From positions 2,233 to 66,232 of the forward strand of contig NZ_JAPJDA010000010.1 of assembly GCF_026241755.1 (NCBI RefSeq): a DNA stretch of 64,000 bases, written 5' to 3'. Positions 1-18,098 of this stretch are shown here, in pieces (position 1 is the first letter of the stretch; each line of letters opens with the position of its first letter). The notes under the pieces are model-generated. The model was not told where the DNA came from. It searched no databases and saw only the letters and a list, made by a program, of their open reading frames with translations. This stretch comes from Salinimicrobium profundisediminis. GTDB lineage: Bacteria > Bacteroidota > Bacteroidia > Flavobacteriales > Flavobacteriaceae. A program made the position numbers and the translations under genes.

Positions 1-530
1 CAAGTTGCACGGTGATGTTTTGGATCGCAACTACAGGAGCTACGTTGTCTTCTACAGTTACGATTGCTTCGGAAGAAGTTTTATTTCCGTTATTGTCTTC
101 AACAGTCAGAACAACTGTGTTCTCCCCAACATTTGAGCAGTCAAAAATGTCAATATCAAGAGTCATTTCTGAAATTCCACAGGCATCTGAAGAGCCATTG
201 TCGATCATTTCTGGAGTGATGGTCGCGTTTCCTTCAGCATCAAGTTGAACAGTGATGTTTTGAGTTACAACTACAGGAGCTACATTATCTTCTACAGTCA
301 CGATTGCTTCGGAAGAAGTTGTATTTCCATTGTTGTCTTCCACAGTTAGCACCACAGTATTCTCCCCAACATTAGAGCAGTCAAAAATGGCATTATCAAG
401 AGACATTTCTGAAATTCCGCAGGCATCGGAAGAACCGTTGTCGATATCTTCAGGAGTGATGGTTGCGTTTCCTTCAGCATCAAGCTGTACGGTGATGTTT
501 TGGATTACCGCAACCGGAGCTACATTGTCT
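1..530 (-). repeat. Tandem 240-bp (80-codon) repeats inside the adhesin gene
   Basis: The same segment recurs at 1, 241 and 481, an exact 240-bp period. Each unit encodes an 80-residue module with the shared pieces DNVAPV, QNITVQLDAEGNATITP and DCSNVGENTV. More diverged copies of the QNITVQL block lie near 1020 and 1980. The close DNA identity of the units suggests recent duplication or gene conversion. More copies probably continue outside the window. Confidence 0.85.
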
Positions 531-3500
531 TCAACAGTTACAGTAGCTTCCGCAGAATTAGCGTTCCCACTTTTATCTACTACTGTTAAGAAGACCGTAT
601 TTTCTCCAATATTATCACAGGTATATTCTACATCATTTGCTTCAGTCAAATAACTCACTGCAACATATAATCTCTTTACTGTCCCAGAGCAAGGATCTCC
701 AAATACCCCGTTTGATGCCGGAATGGTAAAACTGTTCTTACCAAGGGCGTAGCCTTCAACAATTGCCTGAGAACTGGCAGCATGGCAGGAACTTAAATTA
801 TACTCTCCGCTACTTCCGGTTGGTGTACCATAACTGGCGAATTTTACCGCTGTTACAACTTTTCCGGCAGGCAAAGAGATAGAGAGATTTTCATTTTCAT
901 TTACTTCTGCAAACTCAATGATTTCTTTAGAGAATGATATTTCAGAAATCTCACAATTATCTGTAGAACCATCATTTATTTGATCGGGAGAAACAGAGGC
1001 CTGTCCGTTCTCGTCCAGCTGAACAGTGATGTTTTGGGTGACCACCTTTGGCAAAGTTTTATCCTCTACAGTAATGGTAAAGCTTGTAGTGCTGGTGTTC
1101 CCTGCATAATCCATAACCACATAGGAGTTCACAGTCCCCCCTACCGGGAATTCATCGCTCAACGGAATTCCCGCAGTTTGCTGAACCGGCAGGTTTGGAG
1201 TTACACCCGGAGCATTGACCTGAACATTTAGATTTCCAATCTCTGTCCCATAATGACCTGCCCAGAATTCAACATCCTTACCACCATGTTCTATAAAGAT
1301 ATACCGCAGCCCGGTTCCATAATCATTAAAAGAACTGCTAACTGTTTGCCAGGTGTTATTTGCGGTTAAAGTACCCGAGTTGAAGGACTCAATAACTTCC
1401 CCTTTTTCATCTCTTAGTTCAACCCTAAAAAAGTAGGTATCATTAAAGTCTGGCCATCCCCCACGGTAGTTTTCAGAGATTGAGATCTCTGGTGCGGTAT
1501 CGAGCAACTCTTTACTATAACCCTGAGCCAGTAAATCTATAACCTGAGATTTTTTTGCGAGGCTATAAGAGGTGCGAAAAGAATTTCCGTTTACTGCCCA
1601 GCCATTACCCCCATTTAAGGTAACATTCCAACCGGCCAACCCTCCGGCTGCATTCCCGTTATAAGCGATATTGCCAGTACTTGCACAATTATCCTGAGTG
1701 TTAAATCTTAAATCGATTAATGCACCACAAAGTTCTGAATCGGATTCAAAAACCAATTGGGAAGGCTTAAGTATTTGAGGAGAAATCTTGTCTTCAACAA
1801 TTACCGTTGCTGTTTCGGAAGATTCGTTTCCGCTTTTATCTTTTACAGTTAAAGTCACTGTATTTTGACCGAGATTTGAACAGCTAAAGTCAGTAATATC
1901 GAGACTCATCGTATCAATTTCACAATTATCTGAAGAGCCGTTGTCAATCATCACCGGAGTGATGGTCGCAGCTCCTTCAGCATCAAGCTGCACGGTGATA
2001 TTTTGGGTCTCCACAACCGGATCTACATTGTCTACCGCGGTAAATTTAAAGACCTTGGTCGATGAGAGGTTTCCGGAATCTGTCGCGGTGATAGTAATAT
2101 TAGTGCTGGCCTGTGTATCTTCAACAGGAACTATAGTTACCTCATAATTAGTCCCATTATGCACAACACTAATATTGGCATTGGGTATAAATGCCTGGTT
2201 GTCTGAAGTAGCTTTTACTTCCAGGTCTTGATAAGAATCTTCGGCATCTGTAATTTCAACAGTAAAACTATATGTCTCTGAAGGACAGTTTTCAATATCT
2301 GAAATTTCAGAAATTTGTGGTGGAGTGTTCAATTCCAGGGTTTTTACACCTGAATACTGAAAACAAGATTGATCACCTGAAAGCCCCCCGTATTCTACAA
2401 TATAGCCTATTAAGCTATTGCCTCCGTTCAAGTCATTCCATAAACCTCCGTTTTGATAATATATTTGAAGAGAATGCTCTGAGGAACCGGAATTATTAGG
2501 TTCTGAAGCATTCCAGTTTTCAAATTGACCATTTACACTTTGTGACACTTCTGAAAATTGGGTTCCGGCTTCGGGGCCAGTCACCCAGTACCATTTGCCT
2601 TCTGCTTCGGTTTGAGTATTGTAAAGCGGATTGCCTGCTGCTGAATTGATTTCAGAAAAACTATCTGATCCACCAATCCATCCATCACCTGATAGTTTGG
2701 TTAGTATAAATTGATTTTCTGACGCAGAAGTAATAGTTGCAAGATATCCCTGAAGACCGTTTAAGGTTTTAGTTGCAGCATCGGCTTTTGCCTGTTGCCA
2801 GGTAAAAGCACCGTCTACATATTCATAATAATGATTATTATCGGAGTTGGATACTCCTGCTCCAATATTGAAAACTATTTCTCTTTCGAGAACGTTGCTA
2901 CTGGTAGTACGAAACTGGATATTCTGAAAGATATCCTGCAGCTCCTGGGAGGTCATAGCTCCCGAAATAGTGAACACCCCCGTAGAAGTATTATAACTGC
3001 CTGAGACGCCTGAAGGCAAAGTAAAACCTGTAGCCAACCTCAACTCATCACCCGATTGGAAATTCTCGTTAATTGAAACAGTCGCACCGTTAACATTGTC
3101 AGACAAAAGAATCAATAAATTACTATCAATTACTGTATAATTTCCAGGTGAAGAAACTACAGTACTACCTTCGCTGGGCTGCACAAGAGCATCGGGGTTT
3201 TCAATTGTAATTTGTGCATTTTTGATAACCTCATTCCCGGCACCATCTTTCGCTGTGATGGTCACTTGTTGAGTGCCAACATTAGTACAGTCAAAGGTGA
3301 AATTAGCCGGTGTAATAGTATAGCTACAGTTATCGTTTACTGCAGAAATAAATTCTGTCGCTGGAACCGTTAGCCCATCTATACTGGTAAGTTTGCGGGT
3401 TATATCCTGAAGGCTAAGAGTTGGTAGTTCATTGTCTATTACTGTTACAGTAAAGGATTGTGTGGTTTTATTTGTCCCGTCCGAAACTTCATAAGTAACA

Positions 3501-4396
3501 GTGGTAGCGCCCAGTGGAAAAGCAGAACCACTTGCAAAACCTGTAGTTAGACTTATGGTAGGATCAGAATCACAGTCATCTGAAGCTGTTGGACTGCTAT
3601 AAGTCACCACTGCATCACATTGCCCTGCATCAACATTTACCTGAATGTCTGCAGGAAAACTTGTGAAGGCTGGAGGCTGGTTGTCGCTCACAATCACATC
3701 AAAATTAGCACTTGATGAGTTGTTAGAAGGATAACCCGTATTATCTGTCGCATTCACGGATACTGTAGTAGTCCCCAGGGGAAAAACGAAAGTTTGCGGA
3801 TCAATTACATTACCTTCAACAGAGTAAACTACTGTAGGATTTGAATCACAGTTTTCTGCTACAGAAACATTAGAAAAAGATCCAGCTACAAATTCACAAT
3901 TTGTTTGATTTGTACCTACATTTAAATCACTTGCAGTAATTGTGGGGGCAGACCGATCATAAAAAGTTTGGGTAATGGAGTATCCAAAAAGTCCATTAGT
4001 ACAGGCCTCCTCAGTTTCAGCCGGGGGGCCTTCCACAAATTTAATTGTAACTTCTTCATTACATTTAACTGGTAAGAAATCATAATACACCCAGTCATTA
4101 TAGGTGTTTGCCTGGCCGCTACATTGAACACGGTTATTTATTGTACCCTGCACAGGTAAATTGCCAAAAGGGATGTTATTATAATAACCCGATCCTGAAA
4201 TATTTTGGTTCCCACTTCCCTGATTAACGACTATATAAAAATTACCCAAATTCGAGTCAGTTACATCATTGTGCCAATGCTCTAACCAAAAACGTATAGT
4301 CCCGTCATCCCTGAGTTCCCAAAAAGTTTGGACTGTATGAGCAGAGCTGATAAAGCTCAATAGTAGGAAAGAAATAAATAGTAAAAGTTTCTTCAT
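1..4396 (-). CDS. Giant secreted multidomain adhesin with HYR repeats and three lectin-like modules (partial, 3' end outside window)
   Basis: An open frame runs from the ATG at 4396 to the window edge, about 1,465 codons without a stop; the last codons (QNITVQL) are in the same frame as the start. The protein starts with a signal peptide (MKKLLLFISFLLLSFISSA). HYR-type beta-sandwich modules follow. A C-type lectin-like domain lies at about residues 517-672, with the hallmarks WNASEPNN, LWND and GYIVEYGG. An F-box-associated (FBA) domain lies at about 913-1057 (KSQVIDL, ELLDTAPEI, FNDYGTGLRYI, EHGGKDVEFWAGHYG). A SUEL/galactose-binding lectin domain lies at about 1165-1250 (SISLPAGKV, FASYGTPTG, NGVFGDPCSGTVKRL). 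Near-identical 80-residue repeats begin DNVAPV. By family it should be a surface adhesin binding glycans. A type IX secretion C-terminal domain is expected but would lie beyond the edge. Confidence 0.9.
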   Translation of the reverse strand, partial: MKKLLLFISFLLLSFISSAHTVQTFWELRDDGTIRFWLEHWHNDVTDSNLGNFYIVVNQGSGNQNISGSGYYNNIPFGNLPVQGTINNRVQCSGQANTYNDWVYYDFLPVKCNEEVTIKFVEGPPAETEEACTNGLFGYSITQTFYDRSAPTITASDLNVGTNQTNCEFVAGSFSNVSVAENCDSNPTVVYSVEGNVIDPQTFVFPLGTTTVSVNATDNTGYPSNNSSSANFDVIVSDNQPPAFTSFPADIQVNVDAGQCDAVVTYSSPTASDDCDSDPTISLTTGFASGSAFPLGATTVTYEVSDGTNKTTQSFTVTVIDNELPTLSLQDITRKLTSIDGLTVPATEFISAVNDNCSYTITPANFTFDCTNVGTQQVTITAKDGAGNEVIKNAQITIENPDALVQPSEGSTVVSSPGNYTVIDSNLLILLSDNVNGATVSINENFQSGDELRLATGFTLPSGVSGSYNTSTGVFTISGAMTSQELQDIFQNIQFRTTSSNVLEREIVFNIGAGVSNSDNNHYYEYVDGAFTWQQAKADAATKTLNGLQGYLATITSASENQFILTKLSGDGWIGGSDSFSEINSAAGNPLYNTQTEAEGKWYWVTGPEAGTQFSEVSQSVNGQFENWNASEPNNSGSSEHSLQIYYQNGGLWNDLNGGNSLIGYIVEYGGLSGDQSCFQYSGVKTLELNTPPQISEISDIENCPSETYSFTVEITDAEDSYQDLEVKATSDNQAFIPNANISVVHNGTNYEVTIVPVEDTQASTNITITATDSGNLSSTKVFKFTAVDNVDPVVETQNITVQLDAEGAATITPVMIDNGSSDNCEIDTMSLDITDFSCSNLGQNTVTLTVKDKSGNESSETATVIVEDKISPQILKPSQLVFESDSELCGALIDLRFNTQDNCASTGNIAYNGNAAGGLAGWNVTLNGGNGWAVNGNSFRTSYSLAKKSQVIDLLAQGYSKELLDTAPEISISENYRGGWPDFNDTYFFRVELRDEKGEVIESFNSGTLTANNTWQTVSSSFNDYGTGLRYIFIEHGGKDVEFWAGHYGTEIGNLNVQVNAPGVTPNLPVQQTAGIPLSDEFPVGGTVNSYVVMDYAGNTSTTSFTITVEDKTLPKVVTQNITVQLDENGQASVSPDQINDGSTDNCEISEISFSKEIIEFAEVNENENLSISLPAGKVVTAVKFASYGTPTGSSGEYNLSSCHAASSQAIVEGYALGKNSFTIPASNGVFGDPCSGTVKRLYVAVSYLTEANDVEYTCDNIGENTVFLTVVDKSGNANSAEATVTVEDNVAPVAVIQNITVQLDAEGNATITPEDIDNGSSDACGISEMSLDNAIFDCSNVGENTVVLTVEDNNGNTTSSEAIVTVEDNVAPVVVTQNITVQLDAEGNATITPEMIDNGSSDACGISEMTLDIDIFDCSNVGENTVVLTVEDNNGNKTSSEAIVTVEDNVAPVVAIQNITVQL

Positions 4397-4963: not shown

Positions 4964-6139
4964 CTAATTCATAGTGGCGGCATACTCGCTAGGGCTAACT
5001 TCCACAAGGGTTTTGAAGGTTTTACTAAAGGAAGTTCTGCTGGTAAAACCACATTCACTGGCCAAAGCTTCAATAGTGTTGCTTTCTAAATAGCCATTTT
5101 CAATAAGTTGTTTTGCATGCTCCATGCGTAGACTATTTTTGTAGGAAGCAAAGCTTAATCCGTACTGCTTTTTGAGGAAGTATGAGATATGATGTGAAGG
5201 CATTTCCAGTTCCCTTGCACATTCGGTAAGATTAAAATTTTGGTTTAGGTACAATTTTCTATCCTTTAACCCCATGAGTTTAGATTTCACCTCCTGCTCA
5301 TCGAGACCAAATTTTAATTCATCATCCTGCTCTTTTGGCTCCTTTACAGCTACTTCGGGACTGGAAGCAGGTATTACTTTTTGAGGGTATCCATACAGAA
5401 TTGTCGGAAAATAAATTGGAATAACTCCAATAAGGAATAAGGCTATATAAAGAAAGAAAGTAATTATACCTCCATTTTTTCCAATGACCAGCAACGAATG
5501 GAATAAATTCTCTTCAAACATTTTTTCTAATGCATAAAGAATAGCCAGTAATGCCATGATCATGAGAATACTCCAAAAAGTAACTAACCACTTATTTAGA
5601 ATAGATTTTAGCTCATCATTCTTGTCTTTTTTGATAAAGGTTATAAGTTGAGGCAGTAATACCACTAACACCCCTAATTGCCAAACGTGGCGTATTAGAA
5701 GGTGTTGATCAAGAGTGAGCAGCCAGTAATCTACTTCCAGCCTCCTTTCCGGAGATGATATCGTATGGGAGATTATATCATTATAAAAACTTACCGGTTG
5801 AAGATAAACATAACTTACATCTATAACGCCCAGTAGAAAGGGAATGAATAAAATTAAATCGGTGATCTTGAAATTAAGCCTATCCGTTAAAATAACCTGG
5901 AAGTAATAGTAAATGGGAACAAAAATGAGATGATATGGTAACAAAGGCCACAGAAAGAACCAGGTAAAGTGTTCTAAATAGCCCCCATCTATAATATAAG
6001 CCTGTAAGGCATATAGCGAAAGAAGAAAGTAGAAACCTCCCAAAATACGGGTGGCAAGTGTATTTGTTGACCTCTTAAGAAATAAGGTAGTTGATAAAAC
6101 AAAGCCGAATATGGCTGCGATTAATAAAATTAGAATCAA
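4964..6139 (-). CDS. Membrane-anchored AraC-family transcriptional regulator
   Basis: The 391-aa protein has about seven hydrophobic segments in residues 1-255. A charged linker follows (about 256-285), then a C-terminal AraC-type double helix-turn-helix (about 295-390; second helix region ALASECGFTSRTSFSKTFK, followed by VSPSEY). This layout, a 7TM-like sensor plus an AraC DNA-binding domain, is a known Bacteroidota regulator type that probably senses a signal at the membrane. The start appears to be TTG at 6139, because an in-frame stop lies just upstream and the first transmembrane segment begins at once. No binding site was identified. It lies between the adhesin and the xylan operon, so either could be its target. 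Confidence 0.85.
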   Translation of the reverse strand: MILILLIAAIFGFVLSTTLFLKRSTNTLATRILGGFYFLLSLYALQAYIIDGGYLEHFTWFFLWPLLPYHLIFVPIYYYFQVILTDRLNFKITDLILFIPFLLGVIDVSYVYLQPVSFYNDIISHTISSPERRLEVDYWLLTLDQHLLIRHVWQLGVLVVLLPQLITFIKKDKNDELKSILNKWLVTFWSILMIMALLAILYALEKMFEENLFHSLLVIGKNGGIITFFLYIALFLIGVIPIYFPTILYGYPQKVIPASSPEVAVKEPKEQDDELKFGLDEQEVKSKLMGLKDRKLYLNQNFNLTECARELEMPSHHISYFLKKQYGLSFASYKNSLRMEHAKQLIENGYLESNTIEALASECGFTSRTSFSKTFKTLVEVSPSEYAATMN

Positions 6140-7607: not shown

Positions 7608-10448
7608 TTATTCCACCTTTGCACTTTCGGGAGGTCCAAGATAAGAATCTCTATTTTCTCCCGTCCTTATCACAATCTTTTGTACCACCACGCCAGATTC
7701 TATGGCCCACACTTTCAAGCTGTGATTCCCCGGCTCAAGGTTTATTGTTGTTCTTACTTTCGTTACGTTGTTGGCTACCGAAGTATTCCAGTTATCCTCT
7801 GTCTGCTCATGCATATTGATCACTTCCGGTTCCCTGTCATCAACAGAAACTGCAAATTTCAAGCCGCCCTGGTTCCTGAAATCCAGCGTGGGAGATAAGT
7901 AAAATTCAACTTCAGCATCACCTGAACTAAAGTTATGAAAATTATAAGCGAGATAAGGGTTATTTTCAGAAAGTTCCTGCTGCGTGGGTGCATGCGGATA
8001 AGAAGCCATTGAAGATCCTGTTAGGCCAAGGTTTGGGATCAATTGCCACCCTCTGCTGTTTACCTGATTATTTTCTGAAAAGTTAGCCGCTTCCATAGAA
8101 ATATAGCCGTTGCTCTCTACAAAGCCTTGAATATTCTCATCCTGCGGGTTGTTAACCGGAACTTCAACAGTTACTTTATTTCCAGCACCTTTAATTTGGA
8201 AAGAGCCATGAGTCATACCTTTAGGAGCTTTTTCCCAATTCACACTAACCAAAAGTCTTTTTTGATCTTCTATTATCCCTTTTTCTTCGGAAATCTCTAT
8301 CCAATCTGACTTCTTCGGAATTTTATACTGAAAAGGTTTTTGGCCTCTATTAAAAACTTCCACATAAAACCCCTGGTCGTTGAAGGGATCAAAAGCAGGT
8401 AAGCTGCCGGAAGAATTCCTCTCAAAAATGGCATTTTTGGCACCCTGTACAGCCACTCCCATTTCAGCTTTTTCAGGAACTTCGATCTTTGCAACTTCAG
8501 GCATATTATTTTGATCGGGTTGTTGCCAATAGGTGTAACCAATGTGCGTTTGAGACATCATATGGTTCCATTTTCCATCAGCAAGTTCGGTGTGAAACTG
8601 CTCTGTTAGCTCAGCGTCTTTTTGGAAAAGTTCTTTGGTCCTTTCAGCATATTTATTTGCTGCAGCTCTGCCCTGTGCCGCATAAAGTTTATTCTTTGCC
8701 GCCGAAACGTAAAGTTCATTCAGGTTTGCCGATGCTTTTACCGGGAATAATACCAGTTGATAATATGCATCTTTATATTCTTCAGGGATCTGTGCGTAGA
8801 TTGCTTCCGCCCGCTGTTCCAGATCGCGATACTCTTTAACAATCCTGTCGGCTTCATTAAAATTCGTAAGGCTGTAAGTCTCCGGACTAATTAACTCAGG
8901 TTTCCTACGGCTGTTGTATTTGGTATACATGAGCAGGATATCTGCAATCTCTTCAGAATATTCTTTCGGCAGCTGCCTTGCAGCCCAATCTTCAGTATAA
9001 CTTCTCAGATCTCCGGCATCAATTTTTTCAGGATCCCATGCATAATCCAGGAAGAAACTTGTAGGATATTCCATAGGTTTTATGTCTCCTACATTCACTA
9101 TCCAAAGTTGGTCTGCCCCAAATTTGTAAGCGAGGTTCATTTGTTCCCATATGCGGGAAATTTGAGAGGTATTGATCCACTTATAATTTCTTGGGCCTCC
9201 CACGTAGTCAAAGTGGTAATAAATTCCGTAGCCGCCTTCTCTTGGAGCGTCATCGGGATTTGGGAGCTTCCGGATATTTCCCCAGTTATCATCTGCCAAC
9301 AATAAGGTTACATCATCTGGCACCCGCATTCCCTGGTCATAATAATCCTGCACTTCTTTATAAAGTGCCCAAACCTGCGGAGTTTCCTCTGCCGGTTTTC
9401 CGGTGACATCGGCAATGATCTCCCGCTGGTCTTCCACAATTTTTTCGAGCAGTTCTATCGCAGTACCTTCAGCCATTGGCTCATCGCCATCCCCACGCAT
9501 TCCTACAGTTACAACGCTTTCAAAATCGCCCATACGTTCTATCCCACCTCTCCAGAACTTCTGAAGATTTTCGGGATTGGTATTATAATTCCATTCCCCT
9601 TCGCCAAAGCGTCTCCACTCATCGTGCGCCCGCATTAATGGTTCGTGGTGAGAAGTTCCTATTACAATTCCATATTCGTCTGCTAAAACCGGGTTTTTGG
9701 GATCATCATCATAAAATGCCCTTCCCCACATCGCCGGCCACAGGTAGTTCCCCTGCATACGCAGAATTAGTTCAAAAACATGCTCATAAAATCCGCTGGT
9801 GAAGCCTCCAAAATTCTCTGTTGCCCAACCTGCAAGTGCAGGGGCTTCATCGTTGATGAAAATTCCGCGGTACTTAACCTTTGGCGTTCCTTTAGAATGA
9901 GTTCCCGGCTTTACATAAAGGACATCCGATCTTTTCGCGGGAACATCGGCCCAGTAGTACCAGGGAGAAACCCCAATTTCTCGGGAAACATCATACATCC
10001 CGAAGATGGCCCCGCGTTTATCGCTCCCCACGATCACCAGTGCCTGCTCCACCCCGGGAAATGGATCTTCCACCACCTTAAGGGCAAAGGTTTCCCATTT
10101 TCCTTCAATCCCCGAAACATCAATCTTGTTATTCTGAACCAGTTGGTCAATAAGTCCACTTTTGCCAAGGGTACCAACAATTACAGGTGTACCTGAATTT
10201 ACTTCGGAAGTTTTTAATAACTGCGGAAGTTTTCCTGTCACTCTTTCAATATCCTTCTGAAGATCTTCGGCTACGCGATGAACGCCTTTAAAATCATTTT
10301 CATCAATATAAATTGCCGCTGTAACTTCCTTTGAGACCAACGGAAAGAATCCATTTTTTTCAGAAGTTGAAATATAAGATTCCTGTGCAAGAACAGAGCT
10401 GCAGCTCAATCCCAGGAAAAGCAGGAAGAACAAAAAATTGGTTTTCAT
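7608..10448 (-). CDS. GH115 xylan alpha-1,2-glucuronidase
   Basis: This enzyme removes (4-O-methyl)glucuronic acid from internal xylose residues of polymeric xylan. The GH115 signature is clear in the middle of the protein (KYRGIFINDEAPAL, GNYLWPAMWGRAF, GIVIGTSHHEPL, MRGDGDEPM, LLADDNWGN), followed by the helical region and a C-terminal beta-rich domain that family members carry. I prefer the ATG at 10448 because it begins a good signal peptide (MKTNFLFFLLFLGL, cut near VLAQ). A possible ATG seven codons upstream is at 10469. The protein should be periplasmic or surface-exposed. It lies between GH10 and the aldo/keto reductase with a short gap on each side, in the same operon as GH67. Confidence 0.93.
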   Translation of the reverse strand: MKTNFLFFLLFLGLSCSSVLAQESYISTSEKNGFFPLVSKEVTAAIYIDENDFKGVHRVAEDLQKDIERVTGKLPQLLKTSEVNSGTPVIVGTLGKSGLIDQLVQNNKIDVSGIEGKWETFALKVVEDPFPGVEQALVIVGSDKRGAIFGMYDVSREIGVSPWYYWADVPAKRSDVLYVKPGTHSKGTPKVKYRGIFINDEAPALAGWATENFGGFTSGFYEHVFELILRMQGNYLWPAMWGRAFYDDDPKNPVLADEYGIVIGTSHHEPLMRAHDEWRRFGEGEWNYNTNPENLQKFWRGGIERMGDFESVVTVGMRGDGDEPMAEGTAIELLEKIVEDQREIIADVTGKPAEETPQVWALYKEVQDYYDQGMRVPDDVTLLLADDNWGNIRKLPNPDDAPREGGYGIYYHFDYVGGPRNYKWINTSQISRIWEQMNLAYKFGADQLWIVNVGDIKPMEYPTSFFLDYAWDPEKIDAGDLRSYTEDWAARQLPKEYSEEIADILLMYTKYNSRRKPELISPETYSLTNFNEADRIVKEYRDLEQRAEAIYAQIPEEYKDAYYQLVLFPVKASANLNELYVSAAKNKLYAAQGRAAANKYAERTKELFQKDAELTEQFHTELADGKWNHMMSQTHIGYTYWQQPDQNNMPEVAKIEVPEKAEMGVAVQGAKNAIFERNSSGSLPAFDPFNDQGFYVEVFNRGQKPFQYKIPKKSDWIEISEEKGIIEDQKRLLVSVNWEKAPKGMTHGSFQIKGAGNKVTVEVPVNNPQDENIQGFVESNGYISMEAANFSENNQVNSRGWQLIPNLGLTGSSMASYPHAPTQQELSENNPYLAYNFHNFSSGDAEVEFYLSPTLDFRNQGGLKFAVSVDDREPEVINMHEQTEDNWNTSVANNVTKVRTTINLEPGNHSLKVWAIESGVVVQKIVIRTGENRDSYLGPPESAKVE
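8422..8440. repeat. Interspersed palindrome copy inside the GH115 gene
   Basis: The site TCAAAAATGGCATTTTTGG matches the window-wide palindrome consensus. It lies in coding sequence, where it encodes KNAIF on the minus strand. Confidence 0.7.
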
Positions 10449-10481
10449 GATATTTAGGGAGATATTCATACTACTGATATT

Positions 10482-11621
10482 TTATTCTTTTTCTTCCTGG
10501 AAATCAACAACTTTAAAATATGCCTTTTTTCGCTGCATATCTTCGTCAAACAATAGCGGGTAGTTCTTCCTGCCCTCTACCGGATAATAATCCAGCCAGG
10601 AATATTGATCTGAAAGATTCCAGAAAGTCACGCTTGAAAGTACATCTTTGTAATCTCTAAAAACCCGGAAAAACATATCGTAAGCTTCCAGTTGCTTTTG
10701 TTCCAGTTCGGGTGTGAACTCGTCGGACTCATCTGGCCTGCGGTCTCTTTGTTCCTTTTCCCACGGATAAATAGACACATCAAGTTCTGTGATCTGCACT
10801 TCCAGGCCTAAAGAAGAATACATATCCAAAGCTTTACGCAATTCCTCTTCCGAAGGCCCATAGATAGACCAGTGTCCCTGAATTCCCACTCCGTCGATTG
10901 GCACATCCCGGTCAACCAGCATCTTTAAAAGTTTATAGATACGGTCCCTTTTTTCGGGAATAATGGCGTTGTAATCGTTGTAATAAAGTTTAGCATCAGG
11001 ATCGGCTGCGCGGGCATATTCAAAGGCTTTAATGATGAAATCCTCTCCTGCTATGTCATACCATTCAGATTTTCTTAGGAATTGGGTGCTGTCATCGGCA
11101 ATGGCTTCATTCACTACATCCCAGGCGTAAATAGTGCCTTTATAGCGTGAAACTACAGAATCTATATGGGTTTTCATCCTGCTTAGCAGCTCTTCCTTAC
11201 TCACTTTCCCACCATCTTCAGCTTCAAAGATCCAGTCTCCGGTTTGCTGATGCCATACCAGGGCATGCCCCCGCATCATAAGATCATTTTCACGGGCAAA
11301 ATTTGCAATTGCATCTGCCTGCTCCCAGTTAAACCGGTCTTGCTCGGGATGAATTGGCCCCATCTTCATTACATTTTCCGGAGTAATGCTGTTAAATTCC
11401 TTTTTAAGAAGTTCGGCAGATTCTCCCTGAACAGTGCCCGGTCCCACCGCCACTCCTATTGGAAAATAGTCTGAATAATAATCTTTAAGGCCTTTTTCCT
11501 GTTGTTCTTCAGCGGTCACAGCTGTCTGTTCTTTTTTATCCGATTCATTTTTACAACCGGTCAAAAGCGAAAGGGACAGCATCAAAAGAGCTGAATTTTT
11601 TAAAATATTTAAATGAGCCAT
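10482..11621 (-). CDS. GH10 endo-1,4-beta-xylanase, lipoprotein
   Basis: This enzyme hydrolyses internal beta-1,4 bonds of the xylan backbone. The 379-aa GH10 barrel shows the acid/base E172 in WDVVNEA and the nucleophile E279 in ITELDV, plus HALVWH at 119-124. The N-terminus has a lipoprotein signal ending LLTGC with the lipidated Cys at 23, so it is anchored in the outer membrane, probably at the surface beside SusC/SusD. It lies between mannonate dehydratase and GH115 with short gaps. Length is normal for a single-domain GH10 with no carbohydrate-binding module. Confidence 0.96.
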   Translation of the reverse strand: MAHLNILKNSALLMLSLSLLTGCKNESDKKEQTAVTAEEQQEKGLKDYYSDYFPIGVAVGPGTVQGESAELLKKEFNSITPENVMKMGPIHPEQDRFNWEQADAIANFARENDLMMRGHALVWHQQTGDWIFEAEDGGKVSKEELLSRMKTHIDSVVSRYKGTIYAWDVVNEAIADDSTQFLRKSEWYDIAGEDFIIKAFEYARAADPDAKLYYNDYNAIIPEKRDRIYKLLKMLVDRDVPIDGVGIQGHWSIYGPSEEELRKALDMYSSLGLEVQITELDVSIYPWEKEQRDRRPDESDEFTPELEQKQLEAYDMFFRVFRDYKDVLSSVTFWNLSDQYSWLDYYPVEGRKNYPLLFDEDMQRKKAYFKVVDFQEEKE

Positions 11622-11627
11622 AGATTT

Positions 11628-12797
11628 CTATTTGTGAGTTTCAAGGATTCCGAGTTCGAGTCCGCGCAATTCAGCCAGACCTTTCAACCGTCCTATAAAT
11701 GAATAGCCGGCGTAATAATTTTTATCTTTTTCCATGGAATGCAGATAACCATGATCTGGCCGCATGGGGATGCTTTTCTGTTTTTCCTGCTGAAGTTTAA
11801 GGATCTTCTTCATTACTTCGGTCATAGGAACATCTCCGTCTAAATGATCTGACTCCATAAAAACTCCGGAAGTTTCCCTTTTCACATTCCGAAGGTGCAA
11901 AAAGTGGATCCTGTCACTAAATTTTTCAAAGATCTGCAGAAGGTCATTTTTGGGATTTGCACCAATAGATCCGGTGCAGTAACAGAGTCCGTTGGCATTA
12001 TTATCCACATTGCTGAAAATATATTCCAGATCGCTTTGGTTGCTCACCACTCTTGGTAATCCTAACACCGAAAAAGGCGGATCATCTGGATGAATAGCTA
12101 AACTTACACCACTTTCAGCCGCTACAGGAGCTACTTCTTTTAAGAAAGCAACCAGGTTCTCCCGCAGTTTCTGGTCATTGATATGGCTATAAGATTCAAG
12201 CAGGTCTTTAATGATCTCAGGGGTGAAATTCTCTTTACTTCCGGGCAACCCAAGAAGGATATTCTTAAAAAGCTGCTCTTTTTCTTCAGAAGAAAGTCTT
12301 TCGCCAAGGGCTTTGGCTTCAGCAATCTCAGCGTCGGAATAATCCTGTTCTACATTCTTCCTCTTCAGCAGAAAAAGGTCGAAAAAGGCGAATTTTACCG
12401 GGTCGTACCTCAGTACTGTTGCCCCTTCGTTATTTTCGTAAAAATGATCTGTACGCACCCAATCCAGGATAGGCATAAAGTTATAAGCCACTACTTCAAT
12501 GCCACATTCACCTACGTTGCGGAGGCTTATCTTGTAATTTTCAATGTATTTTTCAAAATTACCCGAGCGTTTCTTGATATCCTCATGCACTGGAAGACTT
12601 TCTATCACGCTCCATTGCAAACCAAGGCCTTCAATTTCTTCTTTCCTCTCTAAAATGGCATTTTTGGACCAGATTTCTCCCACGGGAATTTCGTGCAATG
12701 CAGTGACAATCCCGGTGATCCCGGCTTGTTTCAATTCTTTAAGCGAGAGCACGTCGTTAGGGCCGTACCAACGCATGGCTTGGGTCATTTTATACAT
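11628..12797 (-). CDS. uxuA: Mannonate dehydratase
   Basis: This enzyme dehydrates D-mannonate to 2-keto-3-deoxy-D-gluconate (EC 4.2.1.8), the last isomerisation/dehydration stage of glucuronate breakdown in the cytoplasm. The 389-aa sequence starts with the family motif MRWYGPND. It also has the xylose-isomerase-like barrel motifs AIHPDDPP, GLCYCTGS, FLHLRNV and MRPDHGYL, which carry the metal-binding His, Cys and Asp residues. It lies 1 nt after the SDR gene, so the two are translationally linked. Downstream steps (KDG kinase and aldolase) are not in this window. Confidence 0.96.
   Translation of the reverse strand: MYKMTQAMRWYGPNDVLSLKELKQAGITGIVTALHEIPVGEIWSKNAILERKEEIEGLGLQWSVIESLPVHEDIKKRSGNFEKYIENYKISLRNVGECGIEVVAYNFMPILDWVRTDHFYENNEGATVLRYDPVKFAFFDLFLLKRKNVEQDYSDAEIAEAKALGERLSSEEKEQLFKNILLGLPGSKENFTPEIIKDLLESYSHINDQKLRENLVAFLKEVAPVAAESGVSLAIHPDDPPFSVLGLPRVVSNQSDLEYIFSNVDNNANGLCYCTGSIGANPKNDLLQIFEKFSDRIHFLHLRNVKRETSGVFMESDHLDGDVPMTEVMKKILKLQQEKQKSIPMRPDHGYLHSMEKDKNYYAGYSFIGRLKGLAELRGLELGILETHK
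12651..12667. repeat. Interspersed palindrome copy inside uxuA
   Basis: TAAAATGGCATTTTTGG is a copy of the window-wide palindrome with one base changed in the left arm. On the minus strand it encodes KNAIL. Confidence 0.6.
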
Positions 12798-12798
12798 T

Positions 12799-13542
12799 CT
12801 AAAAACCTATTGAGTTTCCACCATCTACCGGAAGAACAGTTCCGGTAGTGAATTTGGATTCTGAAGTTGCGAAATAGTAAACTGCATCTGCAACATCTGA
12901 AGGTTCTCCCAGTTTTCCCATTGGGGTCCTGGAAAGCACCTTGTTCTTACGTTCTGGATCATTATCCAAAGCTTTGCTGGACATATTGGTTTTAATGAAC
13001 CCGGGAGCAACAGCATTCACCCTGATCCCAAATTGCGCAAGATCTACGGCCATTGCACGCGTCATCCCGTCTATGGCAGTTTTACTCGCCGAATATGCAA
13101 TTACTTTAGGAATTCCATATTGAGCCGCCATAGAGCTAATATTGATGATGCTTCCGTAGTTATTCTTTTTCATCACTTTTGCCACTTCCCTGCTCACTGC
13201 AAACAGCGCAAGCACATTGGTGTGGAGAATATTCTGAAATTCGTCGTTAGTAACTTCAAGAAATTCCTTTTTCATATTGATCCCTGCATTGTTCACCAGA
13301 ATATCAATTTTTCCGGCTTCTTCAGCAAGTTTTGCGACGGCTTCAGGTATTTCATCCAGATTATTGAGGTCAAGGATAAAAGGTTTTGCATTTGGCCCCA
13401 GTTCCTCGCAGGATTGCAGGGTTTTCTCTTTATTCCTACCATTTACGTAGGTGGTAATTCCGTTATCACAGAATTTTTTTGCGGTCGCAAATCCCAGTCC
13501 GGCATTTGCGCCAGTTACCAGTGCTATAAGATTTTTATTCAT
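12799..13542 (-). CDS. SDR oxidoreductase, probable fructuronate reductase (D-mannonate oxidoreductase)
   Basis: This is a 247-aa classical short-chain dehydrogenase. It shows the cofactor motif TGANAGLG near residue 11, NNAG near 86, the catalytic Ser in INISSMA and the YSASK catalytic Tyr/Lys. Its position between GH67 and uxuA, together with uxaC across the divergent promoter, supports reduction of D-fructuronate to D-mannonate. That is the one glucuronate-pathway step otherwise missing here, and SDR-type enzymes do this job in some bacteria. The sequence alone would also fit a gluconate 5-dehydrogenase or KduD-like enzyme. Confidence 0.85.
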   Translation of the reverse strand: MNKNLIALVTGANAGLGFATAKKFCDNGITTYVNGRNKEKTLQSCEELGPNAKPFILDLNNLDEIPEAVAKLAEEAGKIDILVNNAGINMKKEFLEVTNDEFQNILHTNVLALFAVSREVAKVMKKNNYGSIINISSMAAQYGIPKVIAYSASKTAIDGMTRAMAVDLAQFGIRVNAVAPGFIKTNMSSKALDNDPERKNKVLSRTPMGKLGEPSDVADAVYYFATSESKFTTGTVLPVDGGNSIGF

Positions 13543-13549
13543 AAGTAGT

Positions 13550-15715
13550 TTAATGCCAGGAAGGACTTATGCCTGGTGCATAAGGGAATTCCAGTGATTG
13601 ATAATATTCTAAATCATGTTCGGGTGTAGGGACAAATTCGGGTAATTCCATTTCAGAAAACTGCTTAAAATACAGAAGTACGGCGTCGCGCCACCATTTT
13701 GCTTCTTTTAGCTGAATTTGAAGCAGCATTTGTGTCGTGGCAAACCTCTCCTCATCTACATATTCTTCCATTTCATTCCAGGTCTTCACCATGTCTTCCA
13801 CTTCTTCCACACCTTGCTGATATTTAGCAGCCATGTTATGCCAAAGAGTCTTTCCATTCTTCATTTCATAATCCCAGGGCACGTGGTGGAACCAAAGCAA
13901 ATATTGCTCGGGGGTTGTTTCTATTGAATTATACTTTTCCCTAAGTGGTTCTGCATATTGAGCAAGCGCATTGCTACCTGTAGTAGTTCGGTCAAAACCA
14001 ACTCCCAAGGAATCGGCACGGTGGTAATATACAGGATTCCACTCGGGCCTATCCAGGTTGCCAACCCACGGGCCGGGACCATAATGGTGACCTGTGTCCA
14101 TGATATGATGAAGACCTAAAGGAGTCATATAATTCACAACTGCTTCCCGGGAATCCAGCATCATTTCACTCACCTCATCAACAAAATCCTTATCCTTTGA
14201 AAATGTCATTTTTAGCCAGTCTTCTGCGATCTCTTCAGAATCTATGTAAGGATCCCAGGCCAGTCTTCCAAAGCCATACCAGTTGGCCTGCCCAAAAGGA
14301 TGACCTGTCCAGTTCTTTGCAGTTCCAATATTGGCCACCCCGGCGATTCCTGTTAATTTTTTATTTGACAGGGTTCCATCTATAACTTTCGCTACTGTAG
14401 ATCCTTCCCCCTGTACATAGGTATCTTCATCAAGCACTTCCTCGAACATTTTTGGCAGGTAAACCAGGTGGGAACTAAAACCAAGATATTCCTGCGTGAT
14501 CTGGAATTCCATCATTAGTGGGGTGTCGGGCATTGCGCCAAACATAGGGTGAAATGGCTCCCGCGGCTGGAAATCTATTGGCCCGTTCTTCACCTGCACC
14601 AGCACGTTGTCATGGAACTGCCCGTCAAAAGGTACAAATTCGGAATACGCCTGTTTCGCCCTGTCATCAGGATCGTGTTCTGAGTAGACAAAGGCCCGCC
14701 ACATCACAATTCCGTTGTGTGGCGCTACGGCCTCAGCAAGCATATTTGCACCATCAACGTGAGATCTACCATAGTTATTAGGGCCGGGTTGTCCTTCAGA
14801 ATTTGCTTTGACTAAAAATCCACCAAAATCGGGGATTTCAGCATAAATTTCATCGGCTTTATCTTTCCACCATTGTTTTACTTCAGGATCAAAAGGATCG
14901 GCCGTTTCCAGGTCACCAGATTCCATTGGGGAAGAAAAACGTGCCGTTAGATAGACTTTTATTCCGTAGGACCTGAAAACATCAGCCAGGGCTTTTACTT
15001 TTTCAATATATGCTGAAGTAAGTACCACCGAACTGGCGTTCACATTGGTCAACACGGTTCCGTTAATCCCAATAGAGGCATTGGCGCGGGCATAGTCAAT
15101 ATATTCAGGCTTGATAAGCTCGGGCAGGTGGTGCCAGTCCCAAATGGAAAATCCTGCATAGCCACGTTCCACGGTCCTATCCAGGTTGTCCCAGTGATTT
15201 AGCACCCTAATCTGGATTTTTGGAGAATCGGTTATAGAAATTTTATCTATTGCGTTTCTCAACTGCATTTCTTTGATAAACCTAAAAGTACCGTATAAAA
15301 GTCCGGCTTCAGTTTCTGCAGTAATAACTGTTGCAGGTGTATTCCCAATGCGGATCTTTTTGATAATATAACCTTCAGAATTAATTTTTGTAAATTCTCC
15401 TTCCAAAGAAGGAAGCACATACGCAGGAAGGTTATCACGGGTGCCCAGAACCAGGCTGTTTTCTTTAATGGAGATAGCGGTTGGAATTGATGCGTCAAAG
15501 AACCCCGCATAAGCTTTTTCAAGCTCAGAGACCGCAGCATCCAGTGTAGCGCCAGACCCATAGGTTATTAATCCCTGAATTTGGGTGGAATAGTTTTCTC
15601 TTAGGGTCGCTTCTTCAATAGGATAATATTGCAGCCATAGATCATAACCGTCCTGAGAACGAAGGTTTAACGGGAGAATTGCCAGTAAAAATATGAAGTA
15701 AAGACATTTAGACAT
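13550..15715 (-). CDS. aguA: GH67 alpha-glucuronidase
   Basis: This enzyme removes (methyl)glucuronic acid from the non-reducing-end xylose of short xylo-oligosaccharides. The 721-aa protein has a signal peptide (cleavage near LRSQ), an N-terminal beta domain, the (beta/alpha)8 core and a C-terminal helical domain. The catalytic residues align with those known for Cellvibrio GlcA67A: acid E307 (KANSEGQPG), and D381 (NGPIDFQ) with E409 (QITQEY) activating water. It is the first gene of the leftward operon, directly behind the promoter with the LacI-type palindrome. Together with GH115 it covers both internal and terminal glucuronate decorations. Confidence 0.96.
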   Translation of the reverse strand: MSKCLYFIFLLAILPLNLRSQDGYDLWLQYYPIEEATLRENYSTQIQGLITYGSGATLDAAVSELEKAYAGFFDASIPTAISIKENSLVLGTRDNLPAYVLPSLEGEFTKINSEGYIIKKIRIGNTPATVITAETEAGLLYGTFRFIKEMQLRNAIDKISITDSPKIQIRVLNHWDNLDRTVERGYAGFSIWDWHHLPELIKPEYIDYARANASIGINGTVLTNVNASSVVLTSAYIEKVKALADVFRSYGIKVYLTARFSSPMESGDLETADPFDPEVKQWWKDKADEIYAEIPDFGGFLVKANSEGQPGPNNYGRSHVDGANMLAEAVAPHNGIVMWRAFVYSEHDPDDRAKQAYSEFVPFDGQFHDNVLVQVKNGPIDFQPREPFHPMFGAMPDTPLMMEFQITQEYLGFSSHLVYLPKMFEEVLDEDTYVQGEGSTVAKVIDGTLSNKKLTGIAGVANIGTAKNWTGHPFGQANWYGFGRLAWDPYIDSEEIAEDWLKMTFSKDKDFVDEVSEMMLDSREAVVNYMTPLGLHHIMDTGHHYGPGPWVGNLDRPEWNPVYYHRADSLGVGFDRTTTGSNALAQYAEPLREKYNSIETTPEQYLLWFHHVPWDYEMKNGKTLWHNMAAKYQQGVEEVEDMVKTWNEMEEYVDEERFATTQMLLQIQLKEAKWWRDAVLLYFKQFSEMELPEFVPTPEHDLEYYQSLEFPYAPGISPSWH
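14199..14214. repeat. Interspersed palindrome copy inside the GH67 gene
   Basis: GAAAATGTCATTTTTA is a shorter copy of the recurrent palindrome, in coding sequence. Confidence 0.5.
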
Positions 15716-15769
15716 TGGAGAGGATTATTTAAAATATGCACGTGATTTGGAACGGAAAAATAGAAAAAA

Positions 15770-15833
15770 ATAACCTATCAGCAAAACATTTTACGCAATC
15801 GGTTGCGTTTAAATTAAAAATATATTTAATTTG
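15770..15833. promoter_or_regulatory. Divergent promoters of the GH67 operon (-) and GH3 gene (+)
   Basis: Rightward, TTG (15803-15805, inside the palindrome) lies 20 nt before TTAATTTG (15826-15833), one mismatch from TAnnTTTG. Leftward, TTG (complement of 15796-15798) lies 18 nt before TAGGTTAT (complement of 15770-15777), a weaker match. Spacing follows the Bacteroidetes -33/-7 pattern. In both directions the -33 element lies within the operator palindrome. This is prediction by pattern only. Confidence 0.45.
15793..15808. promoter_or_regulatory. LacI-type operator 1
   Basis: ACGCAATCGGTTGCGT is a near-perfect palindrome with the CAA...TTG half-sites and central CG typical of LacI-family operators. 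It lies between the divergent GH67 and GH3 genes. An identical 16-mer lies upstream of susC at 31419-31434. The likely regulator is the LacI protein encoded at 19592-20620. Confidence 0.8.
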
Positions 15834-15893
15834 TTAAGATGCAATGTTTATTACCTCTACACTAGAAGAATAACCAACCCATAAAATAGCCAC

Positions 15894-18098
15894 ATGAAAA
15901 GTCTAATAATCAGAAAGTTTTTAATTTTACTTATAACCTTTATTACGGGATTTGCCGTTGCCCAGGAAAATCCTAAAAATCAAAATTATCCTTTCAATGA
16001 TCCTACCTTAAGTATAGAGGAAAGGACCCAGGATCTAATCAATCGATTGACTATTGAAGAGAAGGCCTGGCAGATGATGCATAACAGTCCCGCAGTAGAA
16101 CGACTGGGCATCCCCGAATACAACTGGTGGAACGAAGCTTTACATGGTATTGGACGATCTGGTGTGGCAACTGTATTCCCTCAGGCCATTGGCATGGGAG
16201 CTACTTTTGATGAAGATCTAATTCTTGAAGTTGCCAATGCGATCTCAGATGAGGCGCGGGCAACCCATAATACTGCAGTAGAAAATGGCTATCGCCGTCA
16301 ATATAGCGGGCTCACTTTTTGGACTCCGAACATTAATATCTTCCGGGACCCTCGTTGGGGCCGTGGGCAGGAAACTTATGGAGAAGACCCTTTTCTTACT
16401 GCATTGCTGGGAACAGCTTTTGTAAAAGGTTTACAGGGTGATCATCCTAAATACCTGAAAACTGCTGCGGCCGCAAAACATTATGCCGTGCACAGCGGAC
16501 CCGAAAAACTTCGTCATGAGTTCAATGCCGAAGCTTCCATGAAAGATATGTGGGAAACTTATTTACCGGCTTTTAAAGCCCTTGTAGATGCAGATGTGGA
16601 AACCATCATGTGCGCCTATAACGCGACAAACGGGGAACCCTGTTGCGCAAACAAATATTTATTGCAGGACGTTTTACGTGACAAATGGAATTTCCAGGGG
16701 CATATCGTAAGTGACTGCTGGGCGTTGGTAGATTTTTACGAAGGCCACAACGTGGTGGAAACTCCCGAGGAAGCTGCAGCTCTGGGAATTAAAAGCGGTG
16801 TGAACCTTAACTGCGGAAGCGTATATCCTTCCTTGGTCGAAGCCGTTGAACAAGGTTTGGTAACTGAAGTCGAAATTGACGAGCAACTTGCTGTCCTTCT
16901 AAAAACGAAGTTCAAATTAGGCCTTTTTGACCCCGCAGAAGACAATCCATATTCACAGCTTTCAGCAGAAGATCTCGACACCGAAGAACACAGGGCTCTG
17001 GCAAGAAAAGTTGCGCAGAAATCTATTGTAATGCTTAAGAACAACGGAGCATTACCTCTCAAAAATGACCTTTCCAAGTACTTTATTACCGGCCCGAATG
17101 CTACGAGTATTGAGGTGCTACTTGGAAATTACCACGGAATCAACCCCAACCTTGTCACCATTCTTGAAGGCCTTGCCGGGGCGATTGAGCCACAGAGCCA
17201 AATGCAATACCGCCAGGGAACATTGCTTGACAGACCAAATGCGAATCCGCAGGACTGGGCTTCCCCAAATGCGGGCAATAGCGATGCAACCATTGCCGTA
17301 TTAGGAATTTCGGGAGTTCTTGAAGGAGAAGAAGGAGAATCTATAGCTTCAGAAACTTTTGGAGACCGGCTGGATTACAATCTTCCACAAAATCAGATCG
17401 ATTATTTGAGAAAACTGAATGAAGCGGCAGGTGATGCTCCTGTTATCGCCGTGATCACAGGAGGTAGCCCTATGAACCTTCAGGAAGTACATGAACTGGC
17501 AGATGCTGTTCTCCTGGTTTGGTATCCCGGGGAAGAGGGAGGAAATGCCGTTGCAGATGTCATTTTTGGAAAGGTATCACCATCGGGAAGGCTCCCAATA
17601 ACCTTTCCTAAGTCTTTAGATGACCTTCCGGCATACGAAGATTATAGTATGGAAGGCAGAACCTATAAATACATGGATGCAGAGCCCATGTATCCCTTTG
17701 GCTATGGCCTTAGCTACAGCGACTTTAATTATTCAGAGATCAAACTTTCAGACAAAAAACTGAAAAAAGGAAAATCATTAACAGCAAAAGTTGTGGTGAC
17801 AAATTCCGGAGAAACGAAAGCAGAAGAAGTAGTTCAGCTTTATGTATCTGATCTTAAAGCTTCAGTAAGAACCCCCAAATCTCAACTATACGGAATAAAA
17901 AGGGTTGAACTGGAGCCGGGCGCTTCCGAAGAAATTTCATTTGAGATCACTCCGCAGATGATGCAACTAGTGAATAATGAAGGAGAGAGCGTTTTGGAAT
18001 CGGGTGAATTTAGTGTCTACATTGGCGGCTCAAGCCCCGGAAAAAGAAGCATTGAACTGGGAAAAGAACTAAAAGAAGCCAATTTCACACTCAGGTAA
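15894..18098 (+). CDS. GH3 beta-xylosidase
   Basis: This enzyme releases xylose from the non-reducing ends of xylo-oligosaccharides. The 734-aa protein has a signal peptide ending AVAQ, the N-terminal GH3 barrel (WTPNINIFRDPRWGRGQETYGEDP at 143-165, K195-H196), the catalytic nucleophile D274 in IVSDCWAL, the second alpha/beta domain (about 385-600) and a C-terminal fibronectin-III-like domain (about 640-720). The CGSVYP segment and general pattern fit bacterial and plant beta-xylosidases rather than beta-glucosidases. It is the first gene rightward from operator 1 and lies 18 nt before uxaC. Confidence 0.93.
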   Translation: MKSLIIRKFLILLITFITGFAVAQENPKNQNYPFNDPTLSIEERTQDLINRLTIEEKAWQMMHNSPAVERLGIPEYNWWNEALHGIGRSGVATVFPQAIGMGATFDEDLILEVANAISDEARATHNTAVENGYRRQYSGLTFWTPNINIFRDPRWGRGQETYGEDPFLTALLGTAFVKGLQGDHPKYLKTAAAAKHYAVHSGPEKLRHEFNAEASMKDMWETYLPAFKALVDADVETIMCAYNATNGEPCCANKYLLQDVLRDKWNFQGHIVSDCWALVDFYEGHNVVETPEEAAALGIKSGVNLNCGSVYPSLVEAVEQGLVTEVEIDEQLAVLLKTKFKLGLFDPAEDNPYSQLSAEDLDTEEHRALARKVAQKSIVMLKNNGALPLKNDLSKYFITGPNATSIEVLLGNYHGINPNLVTILEGLAGAIEPQSQMQYRQGTLLDRPNANPQDWASPNAGNSDATIAVLGISGVLEGEEGESIASETFGDRLDYNLPQNQIDYLRKLNEAAGDAPVIAVITGGSPMNLQEVHELADAVLLVWYPGEEGGNAVADVIFGKVSPSGRLPITFPKSLDDLPAYEDYSMEGRTYKYMDAEPMYPFGYGLSYSDFNYSEIKLSDKKLKKGKSLTAKVVVTNSGETKAEEVVQLYVSDLKASVRTPKSQLYGIKRVELEPGASEEISFEITPQMMQLVNNEGESVLESGEFSVYIGGSSPGKRSIELGKELKEANFTLR

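Follow-up and report, generated by a model that had tools for sequence, protein, structure and literature searches.

A putative HYR-stalk adhesin of Salinimicrobium profundisediminis with lectin domains apparently set into split stalk repeats

RTX adhesins hold their ligand-binding domains away from the axis by means of split Ig-like domains, and AhLap of Aeromonas hydrophila has three different ligand-binding domains budding from such split domains, according to the accessible parts of PMC12077191 and PMC10865825. The flavobacterial protein described here resembles AhLap, FrhA of Vibrio cholerae and MpIBP as these excerpts present them: a large fibrillar adhesin with a ligand-binding domain in a split Ig-like domain. 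It differs from the RTX proteins in that theirs, in the same excerpts, use type I secretion and have ligand-binding domains of the CBM, RTX-like, vWFA and PA14 kinds. The words HYR, type IX and Bacteroid do not occur in the available portion of PMC12077191. Among the matches listed from the open-licence literature we found no report of lectins nested in HYR repeats, which does not prove that none exists.

A precedent for a SUEL domain in a gliding flavobacterial adhesin is RemA of Flavobacterium johnsoniae, reportedly a mobile gliding surface lectin (by the title of a 2012 paper); the SUEL domain (PDB 8gl6, chain D) is common to RemA and our protein. RemA has a type A sorting domain, and for type B substrates a PorP/SprF shuttle is often encoded next door (available part of PMC12618676). 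Gliding adhesins travel along tracks on carrier proteins (PMC10994853, in excerpt). FBXO2 and FBXO6 (Fbs1 and Fbs2) have the FBA fold and pocket residues in common with the FBA domain found here, which differs in sitting in a bacterial HYR protein where Pfam finds no F-box.

The gene and its lectin-type modules

The window is the whole stretch of DNA analysed, 64,000 nucleotides (G000:C3:2233-66232) of a draft assembly in 101 contigs, here called G000. A first-pass annotation had described one flavobacterial protein with HYR-type repeats and three lectin-type modules, at residues 517-672, 913-1057 and 1165-1250, and had named a frameshift between the modules as grounds for refuting it. The Pfam matches for Lectin_C, FBA and SUEL agree with those residues, there are no stop codons between the modules in the adhesin frame, and positions 1-4396 contain no N. 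Pfam, a profile of the C-type lectin-like domain (CTLD) and the single open frame thus bear out that description. The features are as follows.

4396 to 1, minus strand: adhesin open reading frame, 1,465 aa, ATG at 4396, open at the window start
4340..4396, minus strand: Sec-type signal peptide, aa 1-19, read by eye
3941..4339, minus strand: N-terminal domain, aa 20-152, no Pfam match
3197..3940, minus strand: HYR-type repeats, aa 153-400, Pfam HYR at 238-319
2831..3184, minus strand: N-terminal part of the CTLD's putative cadherin-like host, aa 405-522, nesting judged by eye (alignment A3)
2381..2827, minus strand: C-type lectin domain, aa 524-672, EPNN 632-635 and WNDL 653-656
1787..2020, minus strand: complete HYR repeat, aa 793-870, from the HYR HMM
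1670..1783, minus strand: N-terminal half of the FBA's putative HYR host, aa 872-909, weak (3.7 bits hyrB, 0.1 hyrA)
1196..1669, minus strand: FBA guest, aa 910-1067 (Pfam 909-1060), from Pfam, PDB sequence and fold matches
1058..1195, minus strand: C-terminal half of the FBA's putative HYR host, aa 1068-1113, from the splice test
926..1054, minus strand: N-terminal half of the SUEL's HYR host, aa 1115-1157, from HMM, split-repeat scan and splice test
632..925, minus strand: SUEL lectin guest, aa 1158-1255 (Pfam 1176-1247), from Pfam, PDB sequence, fold and splice test
524..631, minus strand: C-terminal half of the SUEL's HYR host, aa 1256-1291, from HMM, split-repeat scan and splice test
41..520, minus strand: two complete 80-aa HYR repeats, aa 1293-1452, from the HMM; the array extends past the window
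4964..6139, minus strand: AraC-family regulator, adjoining the adhesin also in Salegentibacter holothuriorum and in G009, a congeneric single-contig genome

The HYR domain (PF02494) scores 68.5 bits in Pfam against a cut-off of 21.7. Beyond the window, on the same contig, the HYR array runs across two 100-N stretches, which we take for scaffold gaps, and the contig ends inside thrombospondin-3-like (TSP3-like) repeats of the gene, so its true 3' end is absent from the assembly. A foreign origin by composition was considered and rejected: with a GC of 0.38-0.44, the lectin segments resemble the remaining gene body.

Lectin_C (PF00059) matches aa 543-657 with E 9.3e-4 and 20.4 bits, below the cut-off of 22.6. 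The CTLDs of a paralogue on contig C37 (20.9 bits) and of locus L044 (18.9 bits) also lie below it, those of L045 (51.7 bits) and of G1026, a genome of the same family (82.8 bits), lie above, and the S. holothuriorum protein has no Lectin_C at E <= 0.01 in Pfam despite 79% identity in the CTLD region. Searched against the PDB, a six-homologue profile of the region picks up C-type lectins: CEL-I (from Cucumaria echinata, by its title) at E 1.6e-8 and mannose-binding protein C at 4e-7. EPN/QPD and WND are the calcium-site motifs of C-type lectins, and EPN in the animal proteins goes with mannose-type sugars; EPNN at 632 and WNDL at 653 align with the EPN and WND of mannose-binding protein C.

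FBA (PF04300) matches aa 909-1060 with E 9.9e-31 and 107 bits (cut-off 32.4), and a PDB sequence search returns FBXO2, 6 and 44 at E 6e-27 to 4e-22. The Fbs1 sugar-contact residues Phe177/Tyr279/Trp280 (PMC4603797, in the part available) correspond, by hand count on alignments, to Tyr/Phe/Trp followed by Ala, which is conservative. All four pocket residues are as in bovine Fbs2, whose PDB entry is by title a complex with Man3GlcNAc2.

SUEL (PF02140) matches aa 1176-1247 with E 6.4e-11 and 42.9 bits (cut-off 31.4). With its host, it matches SUL-I from sea urchin at 2e-24, RemA from F. johnsoniae at 4e-16 (the best bacterial PDB sequence match for the SUEL part), rice beta-galactosidase at 7e-11 and CSL3 at 1e-10. 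It retains the DPC motif, and SUEL lectins bind galactose or rhamnose (Pfam family description).

Structure prediction, proposed as a check on all three folds, upheld two of them. In an AlphaFold2 model of aa 865-1302 (m5bcac57a5284; seven sequences, alignment A2; mean pLDDT 71), VIA-align places Fbs1 on the FBA domain (model ~64-199, Z 12.6), and rice beta-galactosidase SUEL (5iaz, Z 14.9) and SUL-I (Z 13.7) on the SUEL domain (model 292-387). The CTLD model was too poor to be used (pLDDT 51), its top Foldseek rows being CTLDs at E 0.05-0.12.

From these matches we infer mannose-type glycans as the likely ligand of the CTLD, the N-glycan core as that of FBA and galactose or rhamnose as that of SUEL. 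It is plausible that the adhesin reads several glycan types. Alternatively, sugar binding may have been lost and the folds serve as spacers or protein binders, as FBXO44 or the latrophilin SUEL may be. FBG3 keeps the pocket aromatics, Tyr/Tyr/Trp, yet binds no sugar (PMC4603797, same portion), so pocket residues alone prove nothing, and PDB titles describe latrophilin lectin domains complexed with teneurin. We nevertheless consider loss of binding unlikely, as the CTLD retains EPN and WND, the four FBA pocket residues are identical to those of Fbs2 and the DPC motif is kept.

Split repeats around the SUEL domain and possibly the other lectins

The 80-aa repeat HMM matches aa 1116-1169 with its positions 2-55 and aa 1257-1292 with 45-80, and SUEL lies between. 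Excising SUEL leaves a 79-aa repeat that scores 108 bits with hyrA, one of two HMMs (hyrA, hyrB) trained on repeats out of the same loci tested. The halves alone score 57.8 and 46.1, and the best of 50 controls, in which only guest sequence follows the N half, scores 62.4. Four further SUEL hosts (G323, G249, G360 and G1026) give 98-114 bits when spliced. In the model, SUEL and its host have a pLDDT of 79-95 in 10-residue blocks. A PKD-like domain, 4u6t, spans the guest (75 residues aligned, rmsd 2.3, model 249..426, including ~96 residues of guest) with a Z of 8.8 that barely exceeds the tool's "middling" range; 7wqp gives Z 7.6 on the same host, with 85 aligned and rmsd 4.1. Without the guest the span comes to ~82 residues; judging from this range, most of the 75 aligned residues should belong to the host. 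By sequence and model, SUEL lies within one HYR stalk repeat, both halves of which are predicted to fold as one PKD/Ig-like domain.

What characterises the split-domain adhesins is thus found for SUEL and weakly supported for FBA. With hyrB, splicing four FBA hosts gains 1.7-4.5 bits over the C half alone, which is the fairer yardstick for FBA, and with hyrA the score falls in three of the four. The FBA host is also of low confidence in the model. FBA seems to be nested in a HYR repeat as well, on this weaker evidence, and the CTLD, read by eye, appears to be nested in its cadherin-like host. Both CTLD hosts of G1026 score 57 and 49 bits when spliced with hyrB, against 43.5 and 38.5 for their C halves; with hyrA the gain is just 3.3 and 0.6 bits. 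Two spliced LamG hosts reach 85 and 93 bits and the host of the C37 guest 78.

A split-repeat scan over 27 loci, made before L097 was added, found 14 split pairs beside 173 full repeats with hyrA, and 13 beside 194 with hyrB. Removing one pair with an unread middle (both HMMs) and those with a half below 7 bits (one for hyrA, three for hyrB) left 12 and 9. Junctions close to repeat ends escape the scan, which did not pick up the FBA hosts; these were tested by splicing. That the junctions fall at HMM positions about 34-59 may partly reflect the scan's reach. Split HYR repeats surround 5 of 12 SUEL domains from 11 genomes, a count that leaves out the SUEL genomes G040 and G254.

Drawings of HYR proteins usually show a linear string, and one could read the lectin modules here as beads between HYR repeats, with the half-repeats as degenerate linkers. 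The weak score of the FBA host's N half fits such a string, as does the absence of split HYR around seven of the 12 SUEL domains (G003, G244, two in G141, G384, G380 and G081). We think it improbable. The SUEL flanks sum to one full-length repeat in all five spliced hosts, one PKD-like domain aligns across the guest in the model, and the S. holothuriorum orthologue has an uninterrupted 80-aa repeat of 118 bits at the window's SUEL position.

By eye, several of the seven SUEL domains outside HYR look set into other Ig-like domains; those of G244, G384 and G380 (L071, L075, L076) are seemingly inserted in another Ig-like domain type. In a 3,065-aa protein of G016 (L083:6806-16000), ALK/LTK glycine-rich and lamin-tail domains lie inside HYR repeats, and a LamG domain lies likewise between HYR pieces, but in an excluded pair. 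G037 has two further guests in split HYR repeats. Such guests indicate that the sockets are not reserved for lectins.

Relatives, sorting signals and neighbourhood

A scan of named genomes with the FBA alignment gave five loci from 206 pattern stretches: S. holothuriorum (80%), Christiangramia echinicola (55%), whose protein runs off its contig so that its module set is visible in part, and three MAGs with short FBA proteins. The MAGs belong to Flavobacteriales/Bacteroidetes, and their frames (L089:9887-10966, L090:9932-11002, L088:9959-10807) are 283-360 aa from stop to stop. Each is followed on the opposite strand by a GMP-synthase-like gene (named by eye), and the short gene is apparently a conserved, unstudied lectin-like gene.

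The first-pass annotation had called the set of modules unusual, and the counts agree. In a draw of 395 genomes from the order, FBA occurred in four and SUEL in 11, the two draws apparently covering the same genomes; in 12 genomes of the genus each occurred in two, FBA in G000 and G009 only, so that S. holothuriorum probably lies outside this sample. Only the window's genome had both, in either set. The phylum draw gave FBA in 2/395, one of them below cut-off with an internal stop. FBA in a gliding flavobacterial adhesin is very rare. Lectin arrays of a similar kind do recur: a G1026 protein (L097:1735-8799) has two CTLDs, one SUEL, split HYR repeats and an N-terminal domain related to ours (67%). 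The window protein's N-terminal domain was matched in 3/349 family genomes, namely G000 itself, G1026 and one weak partial match with a stop. The G1026 protein also has a 235-aa module at about aa 240-475 with no PDB sequence or Pfam match.

The S. holothuriorum protein, the nearest orthologue in the lectin part, is collinear with aa 1-1113 of the window protein through CTLD and FBA, at 79% identity in the N-terminus (aa 1-150), 79% in the CTLD region and 80% in FBA and host. An assembly chimera across HYR repeats, for which the 101-contig draft, the N runs in the array and two further copies broken at contig ends (C37 and C15) might speak, is very improbable as the source of the three-module combination, given this collinearity, 4.4 kb without N and SUEL host halves that have diverged from the rest of the array.

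The syntenic gene of G009 encodes 2,455 aa with FBA, LamG, a HYR array, TSP3 and a type B sorting domain. The first repeat after the FBA host is empty in S. holothuriorum, holds SUEL in the window and LamG in G009: the guest in the corresponding repeat varies among related species. Window FBA and host are 80% identical to S. holothuriorum and 52% to G009, and the window's last two HYR repeats are 92% identical to G009, 92-94% to the C37 paralogue and 64-65% to S. holothuriorum. Identity of the window SUEL to its counterparts in G323 and G1026, which belong to other genera, is 77% and 69%. As its parts are nearest to different relatives, the adhesin gene is a mosaic. The neighbouring AraC is 82% identical to G009 and 68% to S. 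holothuriorum.

The C37 paralogue (2,095 aa, open at both ends) has a CTLD and a different guest, of 338 aa inside a HYR repeat (L012:1792-2805), which looks propeller-like by eye and has no Pfam match at E 0.01. In the C15 paralogue (L013:1-897) the CTLD is cut short, and a decayed transposase-like gene follows (about 1150-1850, by eye).

With the 3' end absent, relatives serve as the guide to the sorting signal, and they disagree. The G009 gene ends in TIGR04131 (E 2e-20, type B) with a PorP/SprF gene next to it, like SprB-type type B substrates (PMC12618676, as available), whereas the S. holothuriorum orthologue ends in a type A tail. G000 has SprA, and SprF pieces at the starts of two contigs (C13 and C9). 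The adhesin's own sorting domain was not found in the G000 assembly, where four CHU_C matches each lie beside another SprF-like gene. Type IX secretion of the window copy would fit its relatives, and a role in gliding is possible.

The first-pass annotation had also suggested adhesion to plant or algal material, from the adjacent xylan locus. Xylan-type genes are indeed present at 7608-18098 (GH115, GH10, UxuA, GH67 and GH3), and in G009 a GH115-like gene (by eye) two genes past AraC favours that reading. In S. holothuriorum, AraC and the adhesin still lie together, with a histidine kinase, but there are no xylan genes within the 5.9 kb available on the far side, and the species was isolated from a sea cucumber (by the reference list of PMC4036045). 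The suggestion is thus unsupported. A link to echinoderms was set aside too: the source is in print for S. holothuriorum only, C. echinicola suggests one by name alone, which does not amount to a test.

A proposed stalk with exchangeable heads

It seems probable that the protein is a HYR-stalk adhesin, secreted by the type IX system, whose exchangeable glycan-binding heads emerge from split stalk repeats. The polypeptide would begin a HYR (PKD/Ig-like) repeat, exit at its central loop, build a whole lectin domain there, and then return and complete the repeat, so that lectin heads would bud sideways from the stalk. As the polypeptide leaves and re-enters its host repeat at one loop, the stalk could run straight on with the lectin facing outwards, and as one copy carries C-type lectin, FBA and SUEL, one filament could bind several glycans. 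Surface display, outward pointing and glycan binding are how we would read the architecture.

More tentatively, and with slightly less than even confidence in socket and guest swapping taken jointly, the HYR repeats of flavobacterial type IX adhesins may be general-purpose sockets whose central loop takes whole foreign domains: SUEL, CTLD, FBA, LamG, lamin-tail, glycine-rich and propeller-like. Species would then swap, gain or lose a guest at one socket with the stalk unchanged, and if this is true, swapping would alter glycan specificity without rebuilding the adhesin.

With the proposed stalk, the split-domain principle, known from RTX adhesins exported by type I secretion, would extend to type IX-secreted HYR adhesins in Bacteroidota; the protein also adds a rare bacterial FBA with pocket residues as in the N-glycan-reading ubiquitin ligases. 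The proposal gives a simple rule for finding ligand-binding heads, which is to search for HYR repeats cut in two. The series of empty, SUEL and LamG repeats at corresponding positions would offer a natural test of how a bacterium changes its adhesion target.
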